The position numbers and the translations under genes were made by a program. A stretch of DNA of 64,000 nucleotides from Terriglobia bacterium (GTDB taxonomy: Bacteria; Acidobacteriota; Terriglobia; JAJPHL01), in assembly GCA_021325275.1 (NCBI GenBank), contig JAJPHL010000010.1, forward strand, positions 1 through 64,000, written 5' to 3'. Within the stretch, counting starts at the first letter, position 1, and each line of letters starts with the position of its first letter. A model generated the notes under the pieces. That model worked only from the letters and a program-made list of their open reading frames with translations, was not told where the DNA came from and did no database searches. Shown piece after piece: positions 128 to 42,821 of the stretch.

Positions 128-820
128 GTGTGGGACAGCTTCGGCAGCAACGTTCTGGGGCTCTATGACACCACCACCCAGACCCAATCCACGGTGGAAA
201 GTTTCGGCAACGGCCCGGCCGACATGGCGCTGGAACCGAGTGGCAATACGCTCCTGGTGGCGAATGCGGGAAGCGACTATATTTCTCGCGTGAACGCGAC
301 TACGCTGGCCGATCAGCAGGACCTCACGATCGGCGCGCGCCCCGATGGTTTGGCGTATGACGACAACGGGGATCTCTTCGCCGTGCTGGGCGTGAGCGAA
401 GTCGCGCAAATCGATCCGACCACCGGTGCGATCCTCAACTTTATCGGCAACCTGTCGGAGGCCGATGGTTTAACCTTCGATTCCTCCACCGGCATGTTGT
501 ACGTTGGATCGGATGCCGGCGGCTTCTACACCGTCGACACCGGCCTGACCAGCGCGGTTTTCACGGATCTCGGAATCACTACCGATGGCATCGCTAGCTC
601 CGGAAACCTTCTGTATCTGATCAATCGCGGAGTCGGCGGAGTTCAGTACAATCTTTCGGACCAGTCCACCCTCGTCAGTCCCGGCATCACGGGCGCGGAC
701 GATATCGCGCCGGTGGCCGGCCTGGGATCGCAGCAAACCACTCCCGAGCCGGGGTCGATGATGCTTCTTGCGACGGGGTTGCTGGCGCTCAAGCGAGTGA
801 TTCGGCGAAAGAGCGCCTAG
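128..820 (+). CDS. PEP-CTERM-tailed beta-propeller-like protein, possibly 5'-truncated
   Basis: The body reads like repeated YncE/NHL-type propeller blades, for example LEPSGNTLLVANAGS and LTFDSSTGMLYVG. The last 26 residues show PEP-CTERM layout: TPEPGSMM, a hydrophobic stretch, then basic residues (RRKSA). In that family the tail is cut by an exosortase and the protein goes to the cell surface; no exosortase gene lies in this window. The GTG at 128 is only the first usable start. The frame stays open upstream to a TAA at 53-55, and the residues there (NSLIFNSQGNIVWDSFG) still look like propeller sequence, but no start codon with a signal peptide is visible. The gene may have lost its 5' end or may be broken at the TAA. 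The tail is convincing; the start is not. Confidence 0.6.
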   Translation: MWDSFGSNVLGLYDTTTQTQSTVESFGNGPADMALEPSGNTLLVANAGSDYISRVNATTLADQQDLTIGARPDGLAYDDNGDLFAVLGVSEVAQIDPTTGAILNFIGNLSEADGLTFDSSTGMLYVGSDAGGFYTVDTGLTSAVFTDLGITTDGIASSGNLLYLINRGVGGVQYNLSDQSTLVSPGITGADDIAPVAGLGSQQTTPEPGSMMLLATGLLALKRVIRRKSA

Positions 821-924: not shown

Positions 925-1569
925 ATGCGGTGGGGAAGGCTGTTGTTGGCGCTGGCAGTCACCGCAGCAAGCGCCTACTCTGCGCCGTTGCAATCCACAA
1001 AACCGCCGGCCAAGTCATCGAGCAAATCCGCCACGAAAAAACGCGACCCCGGGCTCTACGCGATTCTGCAAACGTCGATGGGCACCATCGTGTGCGAATT
1101 GTTCGAGAAGGAGACGCCGCTGGCCGTCGAGAATTTCGTGGGACTCGCCGAAGGAACCAAGGACTGGACCGATCCCCGCACTAAAGAAGTGAAATCCAAG
1201 GTTCCGTTTTACAACAATACGATTTTTCATCGCGTCTATCCGAAGTTCATGATTCAAGGCGGCGATCCGTTGGAGAACGGCAAGGGTGGTCCGGGATACA
1301 AGTTCAACGACGAGATCCTTCCGTCGCTGCGCTTCAACATTCCTGGGCGCTTGGCGATGGCCAACAGCCAGCCGAACGCCGCGGGCAGCCAGTTTTTTAT
1401 CACGGTGGCGCCGGCTCAGCACTTGGACGGCCGGCACACGATTTTCGGAACGGTGGTAGAAGGCCTCGATGTGGCGGCGCGCATCGCGGCCGTGGCGCGC
1501 GATCGCCACGACAAGCCGCTCACGCAGGTGCAACTCGATAAAATTACCATTCAAAGGATCAAAAAATGA
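925..1569 (+). CDS. Secreted cyclophilin-type peptidyl-prolyl isomerase
   Basis: Catalyses cis-trans isomerisation of X-Pro bonds, probably outside the inner membrane. The N-terminus (MRWGRLLLALAVTAASAYSA) is a typical signal peptide, followed by a Lys/Ser/Pro linker to about residue 40. The cyclophilin core then shows FHRVYPKFMIQGGDP, GGPGYKF, AMANSQPNAAGSQFFIT and HTIFGTVVEG. It carries the catalytic Arg of FHRV and the Gln-Phe-Phe pocket motif. Its stop overlaps the next cyclophilin's start (ATGA at 1566-1569), so the two are cotranslated; the downstream copy lacks a signal peptide. Length (214 aa) is normal for a secreted bacterial cyclophilin. Confidence 0.93.
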   Translation: MRWGRLLLALAVTAASAYSAPLQSTKPPAKSSSKSATKKRDPGLYAILQTSMGTIVCELFEKETPLAVENFVGLAEGTKDWTDPRTKEVKSKVPFYNNTIFHRVYPKFMIQGGDPLENGKGGPGYKFNDEILPSLRFNIPGRLAMANSQPNAAGSQFFITVAPAQHLDGRHTIFGTVVEGLDVAARIAAVARDRHDKPLTQVQLDKITIQRIKK

Positions 1570-2045
1570 AAGCTACTTTCCATACGTCGCTCGGAAATAT
1601 CGTTTGTGAGTTGTATCCGAAGGAAGCTCCCAAGACCGTCGAGAATTTTACGGGACTCGCCGAGGGAACCAAGGCGTGGAAGAATCCGCGCACCGGAAAA
1701 GCGGGCGAAGGCCCGCTCTACAGCAACACGGTGTTTCATCGCGTGATTCCGGAGTTCATGATTCAAGGCGGATGTCCGCTCGCCAACGGCACGGGCGGTC
1801 CCGGCTATCAGTTCGAAGATGAGTTCGCGCCGAACCTCGCGTTCGATCGTCCGGGGCGCTTGGCGATGGCCAACGCGGGACCGGGAACCAACGGCAGCCA
1901 ATTCTTCATCACCGAAGTGCCGACAACGTGGCTGAATCGCAAGCACACGATTTTCGGTCAAGTGACCGAAGGCCAGGAGTTGGTCGCGAAAATTGCACGC
2001 AGCGCGGGCAAAGTGTCGCTGGAAAAAATCACGATCGAGAAATAA
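1566..2045 (+). CDS. Cytoplasmic cyclophilin-type peptidyl-prolyl isomerase
   Basis: A 159-residue single-domain cyclophilin with no signal peptide, probably cytoplasmic. FHRVIPEFMIQGG, GGPGYQFEDE, AMANAGPGTNGSQFFIT and HTIFGQVTEGQ cover the active site. It overlaps the secreted paralogue by four bases (ATGA), and the two share long stretches such as 'VENFxGLAEGTKxW', so they look like a tandem duplication in which one copy is exported. The short C-terminus (SLEKITIEK) matches the paralogue's LDKITIQRIKK. Confidence 0.93.
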   Translation: MKATFHTSLGNIVCELYPKEAPKTVENFTGLAEGTKAWKNPRTGKAGEGPLYSNTVFHRVIPEFMIQGGCPLANGTGGPGYQFEDEFAPNLAFDRPGRLAMANAGPGTNGSQFFITEVPTTWLNRKHTIFGQVTEGQELVAKIARSAGKVSLEKITIEK

Positions 2046-2069: not shown

Positions 2070-2085
2070 GCTGACCAAGGTCAGC
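2070..2085. terminator. Short hairpin between convergent genes
   Basis: GCTGACC-AA-GGTCAGC is a perfect 7-bp stem in the 35-base gap between the cyclophilin stop and the reverse-strand barrel gene, overlapping the latter's stop codon. It has no clear U-tract on either side, so a termination role is only possible. Confidence 0.3.
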
Positions 2086-4240
2086 GGAACAGATTCACCA
2101 CGTCCAACTTGAAGTACACCGCTCCTGCCGGCTCCGCGCCATTGTGCGAGGGATTGAACGCATACGCTAGAGTGAAATTCGCGATGGCCAGAGTGAAGCG
2201 GACACCACCGCCGGCGGCGTAGCGCGTCCCAACGCCTGTGGGCCAATCGCGCGCTACGTCGAAAATCGCCACCGGCGCGACGGAATAGACGTTGAGTTGG
2301 TGCAAGAACACATTTAGGGCGCGAATGCCGGGCGCCAATGTCTCTTGCGCCTGCTGAACATAAATCGGCGAATCAATCTGCGCGAGGCTCGCTTGAATCG
2401 CTTTCCGCGATTGCGTCACCGGCGCCAGTAGCGATTGCATCTGCGAAGCCAGTGCCGCCTGGGAGCCCGCATCGAGACTTGCGATCAGCTTTTGGACGTT
2501 CGCTTCCAAAGCCGGCACGCTTTGGTTGGCGAGGGTTCCCGCCGTTGTGGGGTTGGGGTTGGCCACGATCAACGGGACGCCGAAGCGGATGTTGAGAAGC
2601 TCGCTTCTCATGCTCGATAGCACTTGTGCAGTCGCCGGCTGCGACGCGACATCCGCGGGGATTTCGGGCAGCTTGTCTTCCAGATTCTTCGCCGCCGCGG
2701 CGAGTTCCGTCGCATTCTTCGATATCGCGGCGAAGGCTCCAGCCGCTTTTTGATCTTTCGCTTTATTGGAATTGGCGATGGCTGTCAGCGCGGTATTGAA
2801 CTGGCCGTTCAGGATCGGCAGAAATTGCGGGTCCTTCGCCAAGTCGCCCGGCAGCATGGGAAGTCCCCACAAATGAAATGCGATCGTGGCATTGGCGGAG
2901 TAGAAACGGCTGCCGCCCAAGCCCGCTACAGGCGAAAGCGCGCCCATTTGGTTTTCTCGAATGCTCCGAATGTACGGCTCGCTCTGGATGATCCACGAGT
3001 CGTCGGTGACGAAGGGCCGAACTTGATTTCCACCGAGAAAGCGCTCCGCAAGCGGCGCGCCGCTGGCGTCAACGATCAGGCCGCCGGCCCATCGGGTCTC
3101 CAGGTCGATCGATTTGTGGACCGTCGCACACAAAGGTCCTTTGAAAAATCCGCTGCCCCCGGCCGGTTCTTGGTCCGGCGCTTTCGCTCCGCACGGCAAC
3201 TGAAATGTCGCGTTGTACCCAAGGTCCAAGATGTGTTTCTGAAACGTGGGAGCGCCCGACTGCATCATCCTGCCGAGTTGCAAACCATACGATGCCGTGA
3301 AGGCGCCGTCGCCCGGACGTCCACTGACTCCAGCCAGTAGTTTGAGCGATCCGTATGCGGAATTCTGAAGCAGTCCGGCGGGCGCCTGCGGATCATTGGC
3401 CTGCTGATGTCCGCCTTCGAGCACGCCGCCGTAACGGAAAATCATGTGCACGGCCGTGGACTCTTTGGTGGACGCCGAGAATCTGGCAGTGAGTTTTCCT
3501 TCCTCGATACGCGCCGCGCCGGCCGGCGTGCCAAGATACTCGTACGTCGCGGCCCATGCGGCGCTGTTCCAAAAATCCGTGGCCGCGCCGATGGGATGGC
3601 CAAGGTCCAAGTGTCCCGACTGGCTATTCGCGGAGACTTCCGACTCGCCCTTGATCTGAAATCCGTTGGTTTGGGAGGAAAAGCTCAAACCGCCGAGGCT
3701 TCCGCGCGTTTGGCTGTATCCCGCCAACGGAACGACCAACCATCCACTGTCGGCGGCGCGAGTCGCGCCGGTGGCTGCGGGACGTGCGGCTTCGTTGGTT
3801 TGCTCTTCGATGGTGGATCCAAGCGACGCCGACGCCACGTTGGAAAAGATTGCATAAACCACGCGCAGCGTGCGCGTGGAAGGATCGCAATCGTAGATTT
3901 GCGCTCTGGCAAAGGAGAACTTGACTCGCTGCCGGCTAAAAGCGAAATTGGCGAGCATCCTGGCGCTGAGGTAGTCGTTATCCTGATTGAATTTGTCGAA
4001 CGAGAACGTGCCGTGGACCTTGAGCTGCAGCCCGTTCTGGAGAGCCGAGAAGCGCGACCCAAAGAGCGTCAAGAAGCCGGTGGGATCTTCGAGATCGAGT
4101 TTGGAAATTGTGTAGCCGTCATAGGCCGCCGACTTGAGGGGGCAGACTTCGCTGATTTCCCCAGTGGCGGCGGACAAACGGAGCGCCGGCACGAACAGCG
4201 TGGTCGCGATGATGGCGATTTGAAATCTCGCACGCGGCAC
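2081..4240 (-). CDS. Probable outer-membrane beta-barrel protein, Omp85-like, with a large helical insert
   Basis: A 719-residue exported protein with a signal peptide in residues 1-24 (IAIIATTLFVPALRLSA). From about residue 385 it resembles the Omp85/surface-antigen barrel: LAERFLGGNQVRPFV (family form GGxxxxRGF), then GGSRFYSANATIAFHL, then FDVARDW, GGGVRFTLAIANFTLAYAF and a C-terminal strand ending VVNLFR. Between the GGSRFY strand pair and FDVARDW lies an Ala/Gln/Leu-rich, apparently helical segment of about 185 residues (465-649), unusual in the middle of a barrel. No POTRA domain is obvious in the N-terminal half, which is beta-rich. A 122-residue gene ends 7 bases upstream, so the two are probably cotranscribed. 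The Omp85 assignment is by motif only; another porin family is possible. Confidence 0.55.
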   Translation of the reverse strand: MPRARFQIAIIATTLFVPALRLSAATGEISEVCPLKSAAYDGYTISKLDLEDPTGFLTLFGSRFSALQNGLQLKVHGTFSFDKFNQDNDYLSARMLANFAFSRQRVKFSFARAQIYDCDPSTRTLRVVYAIFSNVASASLGSTIEEQTNEAARPAATGATRAADSGWLVVPLAGYSQTRGSLGGLSFSSQTNGFQIKGESEVSANSQSGHLDLGHPIGAATDFWNSAAWAATYEYLGTPAGAARIEEGKLTARFSASTKESTAVHMIFRYGGVLEGGHQQANDPQAPAGLLQNSAYGSLKLLAGVSGRPGDGAFTASYGLQLGRMMQSGAPTFQKHILDLGYNATFQLPCGAKAPDQEPAGGSGFFKGPLCATVHKSIDLETRWAGGLIVDASGAPLAERFLGGNQVRPFVTDDSWIIQSEPYIRSIRENQMGALSPVAGLGGSRFYSANATIAFHLWGLPMLPGDLAKDPQFLPILNGQFNTALTAIANSNKAKDQKAAGAFAAISKNATELAAAAKNLEDKLPEIPADVASQPATAQVLSSMRSELLNIRFGVPLIVANPNPTTAGTLANQSVPALEANVQKLIASLDAGSQAALASQMQSLLAPVTQSRKAIQASLAQIDSPIYVQQAQETLAPGIRALNVFLHQLNVYSVAPVAIFDVARDWPTGVGTRYAAGGGVRFTLAIANFTLAYAFNPSHNGAEPAGAVYFKLDVVNLFR

Positions 4241-4247
4241 GTTGCAG

Positions 4248-4616
4248 CTAGCTGCCTTGGCCGGCTTGGAGGGGCGGCATCGCGCGCACGGCGATCACTT
4301 GCTGCAGCGCGTTATCCTTATCGGGCTTGCTGACGGTGTTGTCCTTGGCCATGGCGGCGGCAATCTGCGCTTGCCCTTGCTGATTGGCGTCCAGGCCTTT
4401 GGCGCCGGCCGTCGCCTCGGCTTGCGGGTGGTTGATAGGATCGATCTCCACGCTGAGCGCCACGACTGTGGCGAGCGGAGAGCCTTCCTTCAGCGTGAAC
4501 GACAGTTTCCACGTGGCTTGATCATTGGCGTTGCACGTCTTGCTCAGAGTGAAAAGAATCTGCTGCGTCTTGCTGGGATCGACCTCCAAATTCACCGAAA
4601 TCGGCCTGCACGGCAT
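4248..4616 (-). CDS. Small uncharacterised protein upstream of the barrel gene
   Basis: A 122-residue protein that I do not recognise. It starts MPCRPISVNLEVDPSK, has a beta-strand-rich first 65 residues (WKLSFTLKEG, VVALSVEIDP) and a polar Gln/Ala-rich tail. There is no signal peptide. The start is supported by AGGAGG five bases before the ATG. Only 7 bases separate it from the barrel gene, so it is probably a partner. A second gene pair of the same layout lies at 43816-45774, whose small protein also begins MPC followed by a VDP motif; the similarity is too weak to call homology by eye. Confidence 0.6.
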   Translation of the reverse strand: MPCRPISVNLEVDPSKTQQILFTLSKTCNANDQATWKLSFTLKEGSPLATVVALSVEIDPINHPQAEATAGAKGLDANQQGQAQIAAAMAKDNTVSKPDKDNALQQVIAVRAMPPLQAGQGS

Positions 4617-4688
4617 GCGCGCCTCCTATCAATCGCGTCAAATAACAGCGGGGTCATCGTACCACAGTGACGGCGGGGAGGCTCATTG

Positions 4689-5705
4689 TCACGGAAGAAA
4701 CGGCTTCAGTAATTCAGGCGTTTTTCCGCCGAGAATTATTTGTCCCAGGAGTTGCGCGCTCAGCGGCGCGAGCAAGATGCCGTTGCGCAAGTGTCCCACC
4801 GAAACGTAATAACCGGGAATTGTCGTCGCGCCGATCAGCGGCAATCCGGTGCGCGACGCCGGACGGAGTCCCGCCCACGACTCGACGATCGGAGCGTTGC
4901 GAATCTTCGGGACGAGTTTGGCTGCCCCTTCCAGCAACTTCGCGATCACGCCGGAATCGACGGATTTGTCGAAACCGACGTCTTCCATCGTGGCGCCGAC
5001 GACGATGCGGCCGTCTTCTCGCGGCACCAGATACACATGCTCGTCGCGGACCATGTATCGCAACTTCCAACCGTCGGCGCGCACGGCGCAAATTTGGCCT
5101 TTGACCGGGCGAATGTCGAGGTTTACGTGATGACGCCCGTCCTGCGCTGAGATCCGGCCGGACCACGCGCCGGCCGAGTTCACCACGGCGTCCGCTTCGG
5201 CCAACACGCGCGCCTCGGACGACACGCGCAATACTTCGCCCGAGCGCTCCACACGCGTCGCGGCCGCCTTGACAAACTCTACCCGATGCTTCTTGCACGA
5301 CTGCGCCAGCGCCGCGCAGAGCAATCGGTTGTCGACGGAATATTCGCCGGGAAAAAAAAGCGCCGGCTGCCAGACAAGCTCGGGTTCGCGCAGCGCGTCC
5401 TTGACCGTTCCCTTCGGCGACATCATCAGCAAGCCGTCGGTGCGCAGACCGACGCGGCGGCCCGTTTCCTTCTCCAGCGCGGCAACATATTCGGGATACC
5501 CGTCGCGCGCCGCGACTTGCAACGCGCGAAAATGGCGGTCGGGATGTTTCTCCGAATCGGGCGCCAGCATTCCGGCGGCCGCCCACGACGCTTCCAGTCC
5601 CGGCGCTTGCGGATCGAAGACGGTCACGCGCAGTTTGTGCGCGGCCAGTTCGCGGGCCAGCGCCAGGCCGACCACGCCGCCGCCCAAAATCGCGATGCTT
5701 TTCAT
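4689..5705 (-). CDS. thiO: Glycine oxidase ThiO-like FAD-dependent amine oxidase
   Basis: A DAO-family flavoenzyme of 338 residues. The N-terminal FAD-binding Rossmann motif is IAILGGGVVGLALARELA with the acidic end of the second strand (VFDPQ). The ThiO-type stretch SWAAAGMLAPDSE follows near residue 40, and the C-terminal FAD contacts read ESWAGLRPASRTGLPLIG and GHLRNGILLAP. In thiamine synthesis ThiO oxidises glycine to the imine used by ThiG for the thiazole ring. No other thi gene is in the window and no THI riboswitch is visible, so another small amine could be the substrate. It starts 7 bases after the stop of the preceding reverse-strand gene. Confidence 0.8.
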   Translation of the reverse strand: MKSIAILGGGVVGLALARELAAHKLRVTVFDPQAPGLEASWAAAGMLAPDSEKHPDRHFRALQVAARDGYPEYVAALEKETGRRVGLRTDGLLMMSPKGTVKDALREPELVWQPALFFPGEYSVDNRLLCAALAQSCKKHRVEFVKAAATRVERSGEVLRVSSEARVLAEADAVVNSAGAWSGRISAQDGRHHVNLDIRPVKGQICAVRADGWKLRYMVRDEHVYLVPREDGRIVVGATMEDVGFDKSVDSGVIAKLLEGAAKLVPKIRNAPIVESWAGLRPASRTGLPLIGATTIPGYYVSVGHLRNGILLAPLSAQLLGQIILGGKTPELLKPFLP

Positions 5706-5712
5706 TGGTCCG

Positions 5713-6471
5713 TTATGGGAGTGTGCGCTGTTCGAAACCGTAGCGCTCCAGGCGGTAATGATCGCCGATATGTCTCACCATGGCGAGTTTTCCTTCCCAT
5801 CGCGATTCCATAAAATAGGGAAACCACTCGCCTTCAAATTCTTTTTGCCGCATCTCGAACGTTCCGCCTTCCTTAATGCGGACCGCCAAGCCGCCCCAGA
5901 GCGCAAAATCCTTGAACGTTTTCGCCTCTATGCGCATCACGTTGTGGGTTTCCTTGTCGATCCACGCGCGGCCGCTCACGCTTTTCATCAGTTCGGTTGT
6001 TCGCGACGTCGCTTCGTAGTTCGGATTCGGCCTGATGTCGATGACGATCGCGGTGCGTCCGTCGAACGTGGTTTCGTTGACGAAGGTAAACGTGAAGGCC
6101 TTCAAGCATTGCTGCATGATGTCGATCTGGGTCTTGTGTCCTTCGCGGATTTTTTCGGCGCGTTTGCGCCATTCGGCGTCGGCCGGAGGAAATGGATCGG
6201 TCGGCTTCGCGCCTGTGGCTTTACCGTTGATTTCCAGGCGTTGATAAACCGGAACGCCGTCGCGAAAACAAACGTGCTCCAAGCGCGTTTCCTGCTTACG
6301 ATGGGGATTGTCGCCGGTGTCCTCCTGGAAAATGCGCATGGTGAAGCAGTGCTTCTCCACGTCGTCGAACATTTTCGTTTCGTGGGCGACGGCGTCGCGT
6401 GCCAGCGCGTTGACGTCGATAGGGGAGTCGGGCGGCGCGGCGAATGTCATCAGGATTCCAAGAAAGAACAT
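5713..6471 (-). CDS. Uncharacterised, possibly exported protein
   Basis: A 252-residue protein that I cannot name. It begins with a very short hydrophobic stretch (MFFLGILMTFAA), which could be a weak signal peptide. The rest has alternating beta-strand sequence such as RTAIVIDIRPNP, GRAWIDKETHNVMRIEAK and EGEWFPYFMESRWEGK. This reminds me of LolA/LolB-fold 'outer membrane lipoprotein-sorting' proteins, where a concave sheet binds a lipid, but no diagnostic motif is present. It precedes thiO by 7 bases. A TAGACT hexamer lies six bases before its ATG, so it may be read from a leaderless transcript. Confidence 0.55.
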   Translation of the reverse strand: MFFLGILMTFAAPPDSPIDVNALARDAVAHETKMFDDVEKHCFTMRIFQEDTGDNPHRKQETRLEHVCFRDGVPVYQRLEINGKATGAKPTDPFPPADAEWRKRAEKIREGHKTQIDIMQQCLKAFTFTFVNETTFDGRTAIVIDIRPNPNYEATSRTTELMKSVSGRAWIDKETHNVMRIEAKTFKDFALWGGLAVRIKEGGTFEMRQKEFEGEWFPYFMESRWEGKLAMVRHIGDHYRLERYGFEQRTLP

Positions 6472-6477
6472 GTCTCT

Positions 6478-36099: not shown

Positions 36100-39000
36100 A
36101 TGAGGGGCAAGACGATTGCTTTCCTGCTCATCGCGGGTTTCTTGTGCGTTGGCGCGGGAAGCCTTGTTGGGCAAGTGAACGCCACAGGCGTTCTGACTGG
36201 TACGGTGACCGACAAAAGCGGCGGAGTGATCGCGAGCGCTGAGGTCAAGGTCACCGATAAGGAGAACGGCGCGTCTCGTGACATGAAGACGAACGCGGCC
36301 GGACAGTATCGGTTCGACCTGCTGCCTACGGGAACGTACACCGTAAGGGTCACTACGTCTGGTTTCGCGACCGAGGTGATCCAAAATGTACAAGTCGCCG
36401 TAAGTCAGACTACAACGGTTGACGCCACGCTGGTTCCGAGCGCGCAGACGCAGGTGATTACGGTTGAATCGGCCGGAATCCAACTGGTGGACACCCAGCG
36501 GCAGGATGTCAGCCTGTCGATTGCAACCACGCAAATCGAAGATTTGCCCGTGAATGGGCGCGACTTTGTGAACCTGGCCGTTCTCGCGCCGGGCGCCAAG
36601 CCGCAAAATTCCTACGATCCGACCAAGAATCGCTATGGTGTCTTCGCCGTCGACGGCAGCAACGGCCGTAATGTGAACGTGACGGTAAACGGCATCGACG
36701 ACAAGGACAACACGGTGGGCGGTCCCGTGATGCAGCTCCCCATGGAGGCCGTGGAAGGTTTCGTCATCAGCACGCAGCGTTTTTCGGCGGCCAACGGTCG
36801 CAGTGAAGGCGCGCTGATCACCACCATCACCAAGGCCGGAACGAATGAGTTTCATGGATCGCTGTACCTCTTCGATCGCAACCAGGCGTTGAACGCCAAC
36901 GATCATCTGAACGCTGCCGCCGGCAACCCTAAGGCGGACTACGGCCGGCAGCAGTTCGGCGGTTCCATCGGCGGTCCGGTTCGCAAGGAAAAGGATTTCC
37001 TGTTTTTCGCTTTGGAGCGGGAACGGGAGTCGACCAACCTGAACGAGAATCCGACGTTCTACAACGAACTGGCGATCGCCGCGGCCAACGGCTTGTCCGC
37101 GCAGCCGGCCAAGACGATTCCCACGCCTTACTTCGACTGGCGCTACAACGGCCGCTGGGATCATCGCTTCAACGACAAGAACAATTTTTTCGCCAGCTAT
37201 ACCGCGCAGAACAATAACGGCCTGAACGATCAATCCACCGGCAGCAGCGATCTGACGGCGGGAAACTTCACCACCAACCATCTCATCCTTTCGAGCGTGA
37301 ACCTGAACTCGGTGCTGTCCCCGACCGTGGTCAACTCGCTGACCGTGGGTTATCAGTATTGGGACAATTTGATCGATTCGACCACGCGCGCTCCAACGGT
37401 GAGCTTCGCCAGCGGCGAAAGTTTCGGCACCAACGGTAACGTGCCGCAGCAAAGCTTCCAAAAGAAATGGCAGTTCAAGGACGACATCTCCCTAATCCGC
37501 GGCAAGCACAACTTCAAGGCCGGATTCGACTACGTGTGGGAACCGGTGCTGGGAGGATTCTTCGAGTTCACGCCCACACCGTCGGTGACCTTTGCGGCGG
37601 ACCCCAGCCAGATCATCGGAAATCCCACTCTCTACCCGCAGAAATTCGCGACTCCGGGCTTGATCACGAACATCAGCGAAACGGCGGGCAACCCCTATTT
37701 CCTGCTGTCCACAAAAATGTTCGGCCTGTATTTCCAGGACGATTGGAAGGTCAGCAAGCGCCTCTCGGTGAGTCTCGGGTTGCGTTGGGACAAGGACTTC
37801 AACTTGGTGGGCGGATCGGCGCAAGGAGCCAGCCGGACTTACGGGCTGCTGAAGGCGATCAAGAGTCCCTATGTCGGCATCCCACAAGATGACAGCAAGG
37901 ACTTCAGCCCGCGCATCGGATTCTCCTACGATCTCACCGGATCGGGCAAGCACATCCTGCGTGGCGGCTTCGGTCTGTACTACGGACAGATTTTCGAGAA
38001 CATCACGCTGTTCATGGTGCAGCAGGCCAATCCCACCGTTTTCGCGACTACGCTGAACCTGAACAGCGCCGGAATCGGCGACACCACCGCGGATATTGTG
38101 CCAACCACCGGCAAGCCACTTTCGCAGTGGCGTTACGGTGTGGATCCGCTCCCCACTCCTCCGCCGCCGCCAACGATCCTACCGGCGGGTTCGACAGCTC
38201 GCTACATCGATCCGAACTTCCACAATCCCTACACCGAGCAGTTCAACGGCGGGTACACGTGGGTGCTGAACGACAGCAACGTGATCGAAGTCGATTACGT
38301 GCATGTGTTGGGACTGCGTGCCGCGAAGTCGGTGCAGTTGAATCCCAAGGATCCCACTTTGGGTGGCGCGCGCATCCTGGCGTCCGCTTTCGCAGCGGCC
38401 GGCGTGGCCGCTCCGGGATCGGTGCAAATGTACGCATCGATCGACCGGTCGCGGTATGACGGTCTCAACTTCGTCTACCGCCGGCGTCTTTCGAGGCGCG
38501 TCAGCTTGAATGCCAGCTATGTGTTGTCGAGATCGATGGGTTACAACGGTTACGCCGCCGGCTTCGGCAACACGCCCACCGATTTGAGCAATTGGTTTGC
38601 GCCGCACGATTTTGGTCCCACTCCCAACGACGAGCGCAGCCGGTTTGTGGTCAGCGGCGTCTTCAACCTGCCGTGGGGAATCCGCTTTACTCCCATCATG
38701 CAGGCGGCTACCGCGCGACCCTACGCAGCGCGGGAAGGCACGGACTATTTCGGCAACGGAAACTCCAGTACAGCGGAACTCGCCGTTCTCCTCAACAGCG
38801 CTCCAAGCAACTACACCGCCACCGCCACGATGAGTGCGGCGGCGATTCGTACTTGCCTGGCCGCCAACAGCTGCAGCATCGCCAGCTATGACAGTCTGCG
38901 TGGTTCGGCGTTCTTCCAACTGGACACCCGCTTCAGCAAACTGTTTACGTTCAAGGATCGGATGCACTTGGAGTTGTTCTTCCAGGCGTTCGATTTGACC

Positions 39001-39141
39001 AACCATACCAACTACGGCGCCAACTACGGCACCAACATCCGGAGCGGCAGCTTCCAACAACCGCTAGGCTATTTTGCGGCGTCGAGCGTGTTGCAGCCGG
39101 TTGCGTTCCAAGGGGAAGCGGGATTCACGTTCCGTTTCTAG
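36100..39141 (+). CDS. Oar-like TonB-dependent outer-membrane receptor (first)
   Basis: A 1013-residue outer-membrane protein. After a signal peptide (TIAFLLIAGFLCVGAGSLVG) comes a carboxypeptidase-regulatory-like domain (about 27-120: GVLTGTVTDKSGGVIASAEV, GQYRFDLLPTGTYTVRV). The plug region has IEDLPVNGRDFVNLAVLAPG, VNGIDDKDN and GALITTITKAGTNEFHGSLY, followed by a long 22-strand-type barrel (LGLRWDKDFN, FSPRIGFSYDL, LRGGFGLYYGQ) that ends FTFRF. Such acidobacterial receptors are thought to import glycans or other large nutrients. AAAGGAGG stands 8 bases before the ATG. A strong terminator follows, so it is its own unit. Confidence 0.92.
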   Translation: MRGKTIAFLLIAGFLCVGAGSLVGQVNATGVLTGTVTDKSGGVIASAEVKVTDKENGASRDMKTNAAGQYRFDLLPTGTYTVRVTTSGFATEVIQNVQVAVSQTTTVDATLVPSAQTQVITVESAGIQLVDTQRQDVSLSIATTQIEDLPVNGRDFVNLAVLAPGAKPQNSYDPTKNRYGVFAVDGSNGRNVNVTVNGIDDKDNTVGGPVMQLPMEAVEGFVISTQRFSAANGRSEGALITTITKAGTNEFHGSLYLFDRNQALNANDHLNAAAGNPKADYGRQQFGGSIGGPVRKEKDFLFFALERERESTNLNENPTFYNELAIAAANGLSAQPAKTIPTPYFDWRYNGRWDHRFNDKNNFFASYTAQNNNGLNDQSTGSSDLTAGNFTTNHLILSSVNLNSVLSPTVVNSLTVGYQYWDNLIDSTTRAPTVSFASGESFGTNGNVPQQSFQKKWQFKDDISLIRGKHNFKAGFDYVWEPVLGGFFEFTPTPSVTFAADPSQIIGNPTLYPQKFATPGLITNISETAGNPYFLLSTKMFGLYFQDDWKVSKRLSVSLGLRWDKDFNLVGGSAQGASRTYGLLKAIKSPYVGIPQDDSKDFSPRIGFSYDLTGSGKHILRGGFGLYYGQIFENITLFMVQQANPTVFATTLNLNSAGIGDTTADIVPTTGKPLSQWRYGVDPLPTPPPPPTILPAGSTARYIDPNFHNPYTEQFNGGYTWVLNDSNVIEVDYVHVLGLRAAKSVQLNPKDPTLGGARILASAFAAAGVAAPGSVQMYASIDRSRYDGLNFVYRRRLSRRVSLNASYVLSRSMGYNGYAAGFGNTPTDLSNWFAPHDFGPTPNDERSRFVVSGVFNLPWGIRFTPIMQAATARPYAAREGTDYFGNGNSSTAELAVLLNSAPSNYTATATMSAAAIRTCLAANSCSIASYDSLRGSAFFQLDTRFSKLFTFKDRMHLELFFQAFDLTNHTNYGANYGTNIRSGSFQQPLGYFAASSVLQPVAFQGEAGFTFRF

Positions 39142-39434: not shown

Positions 39435-42400
39435 ATGAAATTTGGGAAGAGCTTGTTTCTCTTTCTAGCGGCAGTGGTGTGCCTGGCGGGCGTGTCCGTC
39501 ATGGCGCAGACGCTGACCACGGGCGAGATATTAGGAACCGTTCGTGATTCCTCGGGCGCTGTTGTGCCCGGCGCGGTCGTCACCTTGACGCTTACTGAAA
39601 CCAAGGACATTCGCACCGCCACGACAAACGCCAAGGGCGAGTATCACTTTGCGCTCATCCCGCCCGGCGAATGCACAATTTCGGCGGAGGCTTCGTCCCT
39701 GAAATCGGGCATCACGAAATTCACCTCGCAGGTGGGGCAGGAGCAGCAGATCAACATCACGGTGACGGTCCAGGCCACGCAGGAAGTCATTGAAGTGACC
39801 GGCGAAACGCTGGCACTCCAGACGGAAAATGCGAACTTGGCCACGGCCGTCTCCACCAAGCAACTCCGCGAACTGCCCGTAGCAGGCGGCGACCTCACCA
39901 CGGTCGCGATGACCGTGCCGGGCGTGCGCGTGAACGTCAAGGGCGGATCGGGCAACATGAACGCCGACGGCGTTCCGGGTAGCACCGTGAATTTCACGCT
40001 GAACGGTGCGGACGTAATGGATCCGTACAACAATCTGAACAACTCCGGCGCCAGCAACAACCTGCTCGGACAAATGGAAGTCGCCGAAGCATCGGTGATT
40101 TTGAACGCCTTCTCCGCGGAGTATGGACGCCTGGCCGGCGGCCAAGTGAACCTCACGGGCAAGGGCGGAACGAACGACTACCACGTCAACCTGCTGTACA
40201 ACTACAATGACGGCGCGTTCAACTCCAACGATTTCTTCAATAATCGCAACGGCGTGCCGTACGGACGCGCGGACGCCAATCAATGGGGCGCTTCGGGCGG
40301 AGGACGCATCCTCCGCGACAAGTTGTTTTTCTTCACCGATTGGGAATCGCTCCGCTACGTTCTGCCGAGCAGCGGCGTGGTTAGCGTGCCGACGCAGCAA
40401 TTCCAAACGTACGTCCTTTCGCACGTGCCCTCGTCCTCCGTGCCGGTCTATCAGGATGCGTTTAACCTATGGAACGGCGCGCCTGGTTTGAATCGCGCGG
40501 TTCCGGTGACCACCGGCAACGGATCGTTGCAGGATTCCAGCGGACGCCTCGGCTGCGGCACCAAGGGTACTTTTACCGGTACGTTCGTGAACGGCGGTTC
40601 GGGTCCCAAGTTCGGTGTCGATGTCCCGTGCGCTCAGGCGTTCGGAACCAACGTAGTGGGATACAATCGCGAGTCGCTGATCATCGAACGCGTCGATTGG
40701 AACATCAACTCGAAGGAGAAGGTGGCCTTCCGCTACGAGTACGATTGGGGCTTGCAGCCCACCTCCACCAGTCCGCTGAACCCGGCCTTCAATTCCATCA
40801 GCTTGCAGCCGCAGCCGGCGGGATCGGTCATCATCACCAGCATCCTGACGTCGAGAATGACCAACGTCTTCAATGCGTCGGCGAGCCACTACATCGCGAC
40901 CTTCGGCGTGGCTGATTTCGCGGGCGATCAGACCAAGATGCCGGTGATCATGACGTTCTCCGACGGCGGAACGAACTCCGGCAATTTTGCCAGCCTCGGC
41001 GCGGGCTTCCCGAACGGCCGCAACGTGGGCCAAGCGCAGTTCATCGACGATATCGCCTATCAGAGGGGAAGCCACAACATCAAGGCCGGTGTCAATTGGC
41101 GCTGGAACAAGCTGACGGTTACCAGCAACGACAGCGGCGCCTTCATCGGAACGTATGCGTTCTCCGATCTCACCGACTTCGCCAACGGCGTGGTCAACAA
41201 GACCGGAAAAGGCGACACGTTCTCGGAGAAATATCCGATCCTGGGCGCGGCGCACCTGCGCGAGTACTCGCTGAATTTCTACATTCAAGACGAGTGGGCC
41301 ATCAACAGCAAGATCAAGGCGACCTACGGAATGCGCTTCGAGCGCGACAAGAATCCGTATTGCGTGGATCTGTGCATGTCGCGCGCCGAACCTCAATTCG
41401 GCATGGCCGGCTATCAGGGCGGCGCCGGTATCCCGTACAACGCGACCATCCAGAGCGGACTGGGATCGGCCTTCAAGAGCATCGATGGCATGATCTTCGA
41501 ACCGCGCTTCGGAATCGCCTTTAAGCCGTTCGGCGACCGCAAGATGGTGATCCGTGGCGGAATCGGTCTGTTCTCCAGCTTGTTCGCGGGCAGCATCGCC
41601 AACAACATTTTCGGCAATCCGCCGGACGTGTTCACGCCGACCGTGTCGCCGGCGAGCAGCTCGGCCTCGTTCCCGGTGGTCGACGTTCCGACGAATCCGC
41701 TGAGCGCGGGCGCCGTGGCGCAGGCTTCGTACAACGCGTTCATCAACAACTTCAAGAGCGGTGGAACGCTGGCGCAGATCAAGGCGGCGTTGCCGGCCGG
41801 CGTGAGCTTCGCGTTGCCCGCGCTGTATTCGCCGCCCGACAATTTCCACGCTCCTCGCGTGTTGCAATGGAACATGGAAGTCGAGCAGCCCATCGGCACG
41901 AAGAACGTGCTCGCGGTCACCTACACCGGTAATCACGGTTACGACGAGCAGTTGACGAACGCCGATGCCAACAACTACTACTCGCCGACGAACTATCCAA
42001 ACGGTTTCGGCGGATTGCCGAATGCGGCTCCCGATCCGCGCTTCCTGACGGTCAGCCAGGTGTTGACGCAATTCAAATCCAACTACGACGCCATGATCGT
42101 GCAGTTGCGTCATAGCTGGCAGTATGGCTTCTCCGGCCAACTCGGCTATACCTGGAGCCATGCGCTCGGCAACGTCGCGATTTACAATCCGAACTACCTG
42201 AACCAGGGGTACGGAAGCTTGAGCTTCGACACGCGTCACATGCTTTCGAGCGACCTCATCTGGAATTCGCCGAAGTTCTCGAATCCCGGCTTGCAGTGGG
42301 TCGCCGGCGGATGGAGCATCGGCGCGAAGCTGTACGCTTACTCCGGTTCGCCGTTCTCGGTGAGCAATTCTCAGTTGGCGGCCCGCGTCAATTCAGCGGA

Positions 42401-42821
42401 CAGCAGCGGCAAGAACACCTTCTTGGCCGACGTTGTGAATCCGGGCATTCTGGGCGTTCACTGCACGAATGCCGCCGTGAACACGGCGTGCATCACCGCA
42501 GCGTCGTTCGCCACCACCGCCACACAAACCGACTGGGGAAACACCGCGCCCAACATGTTCTGGGGTACGGGATACTTCGACGTCGATACGCAGGTCACCA
42601 AGGCCGTCCCGATCAAGGAGAAGTACAAATTCGAAATCGGCGCGGGCTTCTACAACCTGCTCAACCATCCGAACTTCGCCAGTCCGAGCGGCAGCGTCAC
42701 GTCGAGCGGCTTGGGCCTGATCACCTCCACGATTGGTCCTCCCACGAGCATCTACGGCTCGTTCGAGGGCGCGGGCGTTTCCGGCCGCGTGATCGTGCTG
42801 GTCGGGAAGTTCAGCTTCTAA
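39435..42821 (+). CDS. Oar-like TonB-dependent outer-membrane receptor (second)
   Basis: A 1128-residue relative of the preceding gene. Signal peptide MKFGKSLFLFLAAVVCLAGV, then a regulatory-like domain (GEILGTVRDSSGAVVPGAVV, GEYHFALIPPGECTISA). The plug has LRELPVAGGDLTTVAMTVPG, LNGADVMDPYNN and GRLAGGQVNLTGKGGTNDYH, and the large barrel ends IVLVGKFSF with the terminal Phe. GGAGG stands 9 bases before the ATG at 39435; an upstream start in the same frame has no signal peptide. The plug motifs differ enough from the first receptor to suggest a different ligand. A terminator follows. Confidence 0.92.
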   Translation: MKFGKSLFLFLAAVVCLAGVSVMAQTLTTGEILGTVRDSSGAVVPGAVVTLTLTETKDIRTATTNAKGEYHFALIPPGECTISAEASSLKSGITKFTSQVGQEQQINITVTVQATQEVIEVTGETLALQTENANLATAVSTKQLRELPVAGGDLTTVAMTVPGVRVNVKGGSGNMNADGVPGSTVNFTLNGADVMDPYNNLNNSGASNNLLGQMEVAEASVILNAFSAEYGRLAGGQVNLTGKGGTNDYHVNLLYNYNDGAFNSNDFFNNRNGVPYGRADANQWGASGGGRILRDKLFFFTDWESLRYVLPSSGVVSVPTQQFQTYVLSHVPSSSVPVYQDAFNLWNGAPGLNRAVPVTTGNGSLQDSSGRLGCGTKGTFTGTFVNGGSGPKFGVDVPCAQAFGTNVVGYNRESLIIERVDWNINSKEKVAFRYEYDWGLQPTSTSPLNPAFNSISLQPQPAGSVIITSILTSRMTNVFNASASHYIATFGVADFAGDQTKMPVIMTFSDGGTNSGNFASLGAGFPNGRNVGQAQFIDDIAYQRGSHNIKAGVNWRWNKLTVTSNDSGAFIGTYAFSDLTDFANGVVNKTGKGDTFSEKYPILGAAHLREYSLNFYIQDEWAINSKIKATYGMRFERDKNPYCVDLCMSRAEPQFGMAGYQGGAGIPYNATIQSGLGSAFKSIDGMIFEPRFGIAFKPFGDRKMVIRGGIGLFSSLFAGSIANNIFGNPPDVFTPTVSPASSSASFPVVDVPTNPLSAGAVAQASYNAFINNFKSGGTLAQIKAALPAGVSFALPALYSPPDNFHAPRVLQWNMEVEQPIGTKNVLAVTYTGNHGYDEQLTNADANNYYSPTNYPNGFGGLPNAAPDPRFLTVSQVLTQFKSNYDAMIVQLRHSWQYGFSGQLGYTWSHALGNVAIYNPNYLNQGYGSLSFDTRHMLSSDLIWNSPKFSNPGLQWVAGGWSIGAKLYAYSGSPFSVSNSQLAARVNSADSSGKNTFLADVVNPGILGVHCTNAAVNTACITAASFATTATQTDWGNTAPNMFWGTGYFDVDTQVTKAVPIKEKYKFEIGAGFYNLLNHPNFASPSGSVTSSGLGLITSTIGPPTSIYGSFEGAGVSGRVIVLVGKFSF

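Follow-up and report, generated by a model that had tools for sequence, protein, structure and literature searches.

We describe a two-gene outer-membrane module. Its larger protein is, by sequence profiles, a divergent member of the Omp85-type barrels and has a single POTRA-like region; its gene invariably comes immediately after that of a small protein that lacks a signal peptide. Omp85 proteins, the universal machines of outer-membrane assembly and export, are known to differ mainly in their N-terminal domains; what is new here is a variant in which a periplasmic turn of the barrel appears to have grown into a large helical domain and that comes with a small leaderless protein. The module was read from 64,000 nucleotides of a Terriglobia bacterium (contig JAJPHL010000010.1, hereafter the window), where the gene of the Omp85-like outer-membrane protein (719 aa, GTG start, assigned by profile homology) occupies positions 2081..4240 and the small partner gene (122 aa, ATG start) positions 4248..4616, both on the reverse strand. 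We consider this architecture of a two-gene outer-membrane module very probably correct as read. For its function, we infer with slightly less than even confidence that this Omp85 variant uses a periplasmic arm for docking and has a dedicated partner that probably works in the cytoplasm.

Barrel protein family and its relation to Omp85

Whole-genome searches with the window protein and then with profiles recovered the barrel protein from 17 genomes. Five overlapping searches gave 5 matches in 396 genomes (4 kept), 2 in 11 genomes, 1 in 15 genomes, 12 in 162 genomes (11 kept) and 5 in 399 genomes. In the searches of 396 to 399 genomes, 2 candidates were scored per genome for the barrel protein and up to 11 for the small protein, and genome counts are lower bounds because few candidates were scored per genome. 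Six weak barrel matches in the 396 genomes (5e-6 to 1e-3) and locus L022 (genome G409, E 9.4e-4) were left out of the member count, and L008 was rejected as a member, its frame being unrelated as judged by eye. Relatives were also sought in genome contigs and in plasmids, where none was found. We compared the 16 regions around members outside the window; loci L032, L038, L041, L035 and L042, being truncated or disrupted, do not enter all of the counts. In L038 (4513-6473), the barrel gene lies in two frames (4513-5223 and 5247-6473), through mutation or assembly error. The end of the barrel profile also gave weak matches in open frames of 2267-2300 aa at loci L104, L106, L108 and L109, perhaps very large Omp85-type proteins.

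Within the window protein (all positions on the reverse strand), a probable signal peptide covers residues about 1-25 (4166..4240), with a hydropathy peak of 2.35 compared to 0.20 in the small protein. It is followed by a POTRA-like region at residues 43-131 (3848..4114), by strands about 1-12 of the putative barrel at residues about 165-464 (2849..3748), whose borders were estimated from the profile alignment, and, after the insert described below, by strands about 13-16 at residues 648-719 (2084..2299), placed by comparison with relatives and profile alignment and ending in LFR. Two Cys columns are conserved, Cys33 before the POTRA-like region and Cys118 inside it.

To compare barrels, the insert was left out and 14 family sequences were aligned with 32 Omp85 barrels from the window's own and related genomes, yielding an hhalign score of 81.9 (P 7.5e-10) over 327 collinear columns that run to near the C-terminus. 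Controls stayed far lower: 17.0 for the reversed Omp85 profile, 18.8 and 15.9 for Oar/TonB-type barrels, and 10.4-17.1 for 20 column shuffles. The larger protein can thus be called an Omp85-type barrel from its profile, as the preliminary description had proposed. The N-terminal region scored 40.1 against the Omp85 POTRA region (reversed control 15.2), with an hhalign probability of only 60.7, and 30.3 against the Omp85 barrel set, the first part of which still includes POTRA sequence. We conclude that one POTRA-like region is present, on a comparison weaker than that of the barrel. When the insert was kept and only three Omp85 sequences were used, hhalign aligned the POTRA part alone. As a side observation, the Oar/TonB-type model PF25183 has 82 matches in the window's own genome, two of them in the window at 36826-39054 and 40161-42737 (forward strand).

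Homology to Omp85, clear by profiles, is nearly invisible in single sequences. When 10 members were searched singly with Pfam PF01103, one reached the cut-off (L033, 24.0 bits), two fell below it (part of L038, and L041) and 7 gave none; the window barrel protein had no Omp85 match in the Pfam scan. Apart from Omp85, the searches of NCBIfam for the barrel and of Pfam for 16 barrel members returned weak matches of single members only, and neither window protein had a match worth naming in Pfam and NCBIfam. Against solved structures, the barrel profile retrieved mostly helical proteins that match in the insert (best E 0.0061), which we took as helix background, with no Omp85 chain among the best 60 matches listed. 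AlphaFold2 run on the single window sequence gave pLDDT values below 50 for the barrel and for nearly all of the chain outside the insert.

In the lid lock of Omp85 proteins, as set out in passages of PMC4490367, the Arg of the loop 6 motif (V/I)RG(Y/F) binds the Asp of the strand 13 motif (F/G)xDxG. The preliminary description had pointed to GGNQVRPF (residues 403-410), GGSRFYSANATIAF (442-455) and FDVARDW (660-666) as Omp85 motifs. GGNQVRPF is present, but it is not the counterpart of VRGF, a place to which IRSI aligns instead (residues 424-427, 2960..2971, reverse strand); in the profile alignment, IRSIRENQ of the window is paired with DRAFPENQ of an Omp85 protein from the same genome. On strand 13, the Asp of VAIFDVARDW (residues 657-666, 2243..2272, reverse strand) is aligned with that of FxDxG. 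The lid-lock Arg is found in 15/15 family rows and the Asp in 15/16, with Glu in the remaining one, while both residues occur in 32/32 related Omp85 proteins. The Gly of the strand 13 motif is replaced by Ala in 16/16 family rows, no literal (V/I)RG(Y/F) occurs in any of 18 family sequences, and the literal (F/G)xDxG is absent at strand 13 throughout the family. The literal loop 6 motif is no strict criterion here because it is absent at the aligned place from 20/32 of the comparison Omp85 proteins (present in 12/32). In the alignments, the Arg and Asp that correspond to the lid lock are thus kept and both signature motifs are altered.

Helical insert between strands 12 and 13

Comparison with relatives delimits the insert of the window protein to residues 465-647 (2300..2848, reverse strand), in the turn that joins strand 12 to strand 13. 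It comprises 183 residues, with 20% Ala, 12% Leu, 9% Gln and 3% aromatic residues. Its length could be measured in 16 members, in which the turn spans 65-484 residues, compared to 4-8 residues in 32/32 related Omp85 proteins, so that the Ala/Gln-rich helical block reported earlier in place of a short loop is borne out. On its flanks, the family consensus reads GGxxF..NLT...W..PLxP on strand 12 and NLxSVxPvxxFDAAR on strand 13.

The single-sequence AlphaFold2 model places helices at residues 474-491, 497-522, 535-560, 564-591, 595-620 and 626-648, with block pLDDT values of 76-91 across most of 501-620, and the insert of the window protein is accordingly predicted to fold as a helical bundle with six main helices over 474-648. 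The inserts of other members are probably helical as well, judging from their composition, which is poor in Gly, Pro and aromatic residues. A fold search with the insert returned many helical bundles, at best with Z 13.3 and an rmsd of 3.4 over 126 residues (a talin fragment), which is within the background, since helical models reach Z about 14 by chance. The turn comes after strand 12, which itself succeeds the extracellular loop 6, and the POTRA end faces the periplasm; by known Omp85 topology, the turn and with it the insert are therefore likely to lie on the periplasmic side. With this topology, and with the small protein's lack of a signal-peptide-like start, the surface-display device suggested in the preliminary description is not supported.

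The insert could also be read differently, as a periplasmic sensor or binding domain on a barrel that kept the Omp85 fold and serves as an ordinary outer-membrane anchor or channel, with no translocase activity. The altered signature motifs would suit this, as would the variable length and poor conservation of the insert, whose identity follows that of the barrel with r = 0.29 only, and its likeness to helical bundles in general, which include the sensor domains of McpS, TorS and PilJ (the Pfam HBM model matches the insert weakly, E 0.51). We find this reading doubtful, as the lid-lock Arg and Asp are retained in nearly all rows and the helical-bundle matches do not rise above background.

Small partner gene and its pairing with the barrel gene

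In all 14 loci that have DNA upstream of the barrel gene (window included), the gene immediately preceding it on the same strand is a homologue of the small gene, which upholds the earlier suggestion of a dedicated small partner; the remaining three loci run into a contig end. A profile of three sequences detected thirteen of these homologues with E-values of 0.0027 or below, and the E-value of the fourteenth went from 0.05 to 5e-25 when the profile was built from the 13 others. The small-protein profile matched 4 of the 396 genomes searched in the phylum, the same 4 that have strong barrel matches. Since homologues of both genes keep their order and strand in other genomes, the pair does not consist of chance open reading frames. 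Pairwise identities of the small and large proteins are correlated (r = 0.77 over 12 loci, a value reached in 0/5000 permutations), although shared descent alone may give such a value.

Depending on the chosen starts, the small proteins measure 116-142 residues across the family. They have no signal peptide by N-terminal hydropathy, their peaks of 0.2-1.55 comparing with 1.45-3.08 in the barrel proteins. No known family fits the small protein (Pfam for 14 members; NCBIfam and PHROGs). Its model, of low confidence (pLDDT 52), has five strands followed by two helices; fold searches with this weak model stayed at or below Z 5.7 and, in Foldseek, at E-values no better than 0.96, a negative outcome that carries no weight. 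Its profile had a single match among solved structures, at E 7.3. A Cys pair (Cys3-Cys28) is present in 9/14 small proteins and wholly absent from the other 5, an all-or-none pattern such as a disulfide would leave; as this would imply export, it counts against the cytoplasmic reading.

This pattern of Cys residues and the strict pairing of the genes would agree with the small protein being exported cargo, which would cross the inner membrane without a classical signal and then leave the cell or reach its surface via the barrel, as a miniature two-partner pair. The genes of TpsB transporters, too, come with that of a single partner (as stated in a section of PMC11116518). The small proteins have no hydrophobic N-terminus, however, and no conserved inner-membrane exporter is encoded nearby. 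The substrates of two-partner secretion are, moreover, large and exported by Sec. We therefore regard export of the small protein as unlikely.

The earlier description of a strong ribosome site on a gene coupled upstream agrees with the translation signals. In the window, AGGAGG (4622..4627, reverse strand) stands 5 bases 5' of the ATG of the small gene, the stop of which is separated by 7 bases from the GTG of the barrel gene; no AGGAGG-type ribosome site precedes this GTG. Across loci, motifs resembling a ribosome site occur upstream of 11/14 small genes versus 3/14 barrel genes, and the two genes overlap or lie 16 bases or less apart in 6/14 loci. These signals would suit a small protein that is a mere translational leader or regulator setting the level of the barrel protein, but such a role is very unlikely, as gaps in the other loci reach 314 bases and its sequence, which a leader would not need to conserve, is 69% identical between the window and L043 (barrel protein 53%).

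We found no conserved neighbor genes around the pair across loci; blastp among the neighbors matched only a few of them, and these matches for the most part linked loci within a single genome family. The neighborhood thus points to no substrate, and function had to be argued from anatomy. Genes for a patatin, a peptidoglycan hydrolase and other proteins lie near single loci. Patatin-like phospholipase genes occur at L033:7232-9511 and L034:3-1868; a split PlpD was rejected as an explanation, these two loci being the only ones with a patatin and that of L034 not adjoining the pair. L038:7083-8693 and L041:1614-3230 are related membrane-protein-like genes that flank the pair (25% identity, no Pfam family), in loci that also carry amidase, M15 peptidase or peptidoglycan-binding genes. 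In the window, two cyclophilin-type peptidyl-prolyl isomerase genes that overlap by 4 bases (925-1569 and 1566-2045, forward strand), only one of which has a hydrophobic start, are convergent with the barrel gene, and a secreted-looking repeat protein is encoded at 128-820 (forward strand), the C-terminus of which (PEPGSMMLLATGLLALKRVIRRKSA) looks like a PEP-CTERM sorting signal.

Proposed function and comparison with known systems

The retained lid lock, the single POTRA-like region and the periplasmic helices together suggest a specialized assembly or export factor, and we lean slightly towards an Omp85-like export or assembly role for the barrel protein. The helical domain would hang in the periplasm beneath the mouth of the barrel, where it could assume part of the docking role of the POTRA row of BamA or TamA, with a substrate or else a partner in the envelope as what it receives. 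The small protein would be translated first, from the same mRNA, and stay in the cytoplasm as a dedicated partner; a chaperone-like role there is possible and is put forward tentatively, in which it would most likely act as a chaperone or targeting factor that maintains the export competence of the barrel precursor or of a substrate common to both. A turn of the barrel would in this way have taken over the docking surface from the POTRAs, and the partner in the cytoplasm would be co-translated. It is highly improbable that the module is instead an Omp85 export machine whose arm, of up to 484 residues, spans the periplasm and takes the leaderless small protein out via the barrel; were this true, a protein without a classical signal would exit the cell through an Omp85 barrel. 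With its docking arm and its partner, the module offers a compact natural system for studying POTRA function and whether a barrel turn can replace POTRAs, and it also poses the question of how a cytoplasmic protein gets tied to an outer-membrane machine.

Among the titles and openings of abstracts listed by our literature searches, which covered mostly open-access papers, we found no description of an Omp85 variant with this insert and partner, and a literature search joining Omp85 and Acidobacteriota returned no paper. The fold of SecB consists of strands followed by two helices, and the small protein resembles it by analogy, being small, leaderless and, in its low-confidence model, of the same order of strands and helices. 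There is no sequence-profile similarity between the two, and SecB was rejected as a relative (profile score of the hhalign type 11.5, versus 12.2 for the reversed profile and a mean of 11.0 and maximum of 15.1 for 50 shuffles).

FhaC and CdiB (TpsB) likewise belong to two-gene modules with an Omp85-superfamily barrel. TpsB proteins have two POTRAs, whereas the present module has a single POTRA-like region and its partner is small and leaderless; membership in TpsB was rejected, as the N-terminal part has room for one POTRA only and the partner measures 116-142 aa. PlpD-type patatin-Omp85 proteins also combine a POTRA and an Omp85 barrel with an additional periplasmic domain outside the barrel fold. 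In PlpD, this domain stands at the N-terminus and is an enzyme, whereas here it is helical and lies inside the barrel sequence; the patatin is not fused, its genes lying near 2/16 loci, and no patatin domain was matched in the same chain in 16 members at E 1. The extra domain of PlpD was once thought to be displayed and is actually kept in the periplasm (same section of PMC11116518).

Also close are BamA, TamA and the 'BamA-like' Omp85 proteins, with which the family shares collinear barrel homology, a POTRA-like N-terminus and the lid-lock Arg and Asp. In the main text of Heinz and Lithgow (2014, PMC4104836), Omp85 proteins are divided into ten subfamilies by their N-terminal domains, the 'BamA-like' ones having 1-3 POTRAs, and the words 'insert' and 'operon' were not found there. 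Compared to BamA and TamA, the present proteins have one POTRA-like region, altered motifs, an insert of 65-484 residues between strands 12 and 13 and a small partner gene whose product has no signal peptide.
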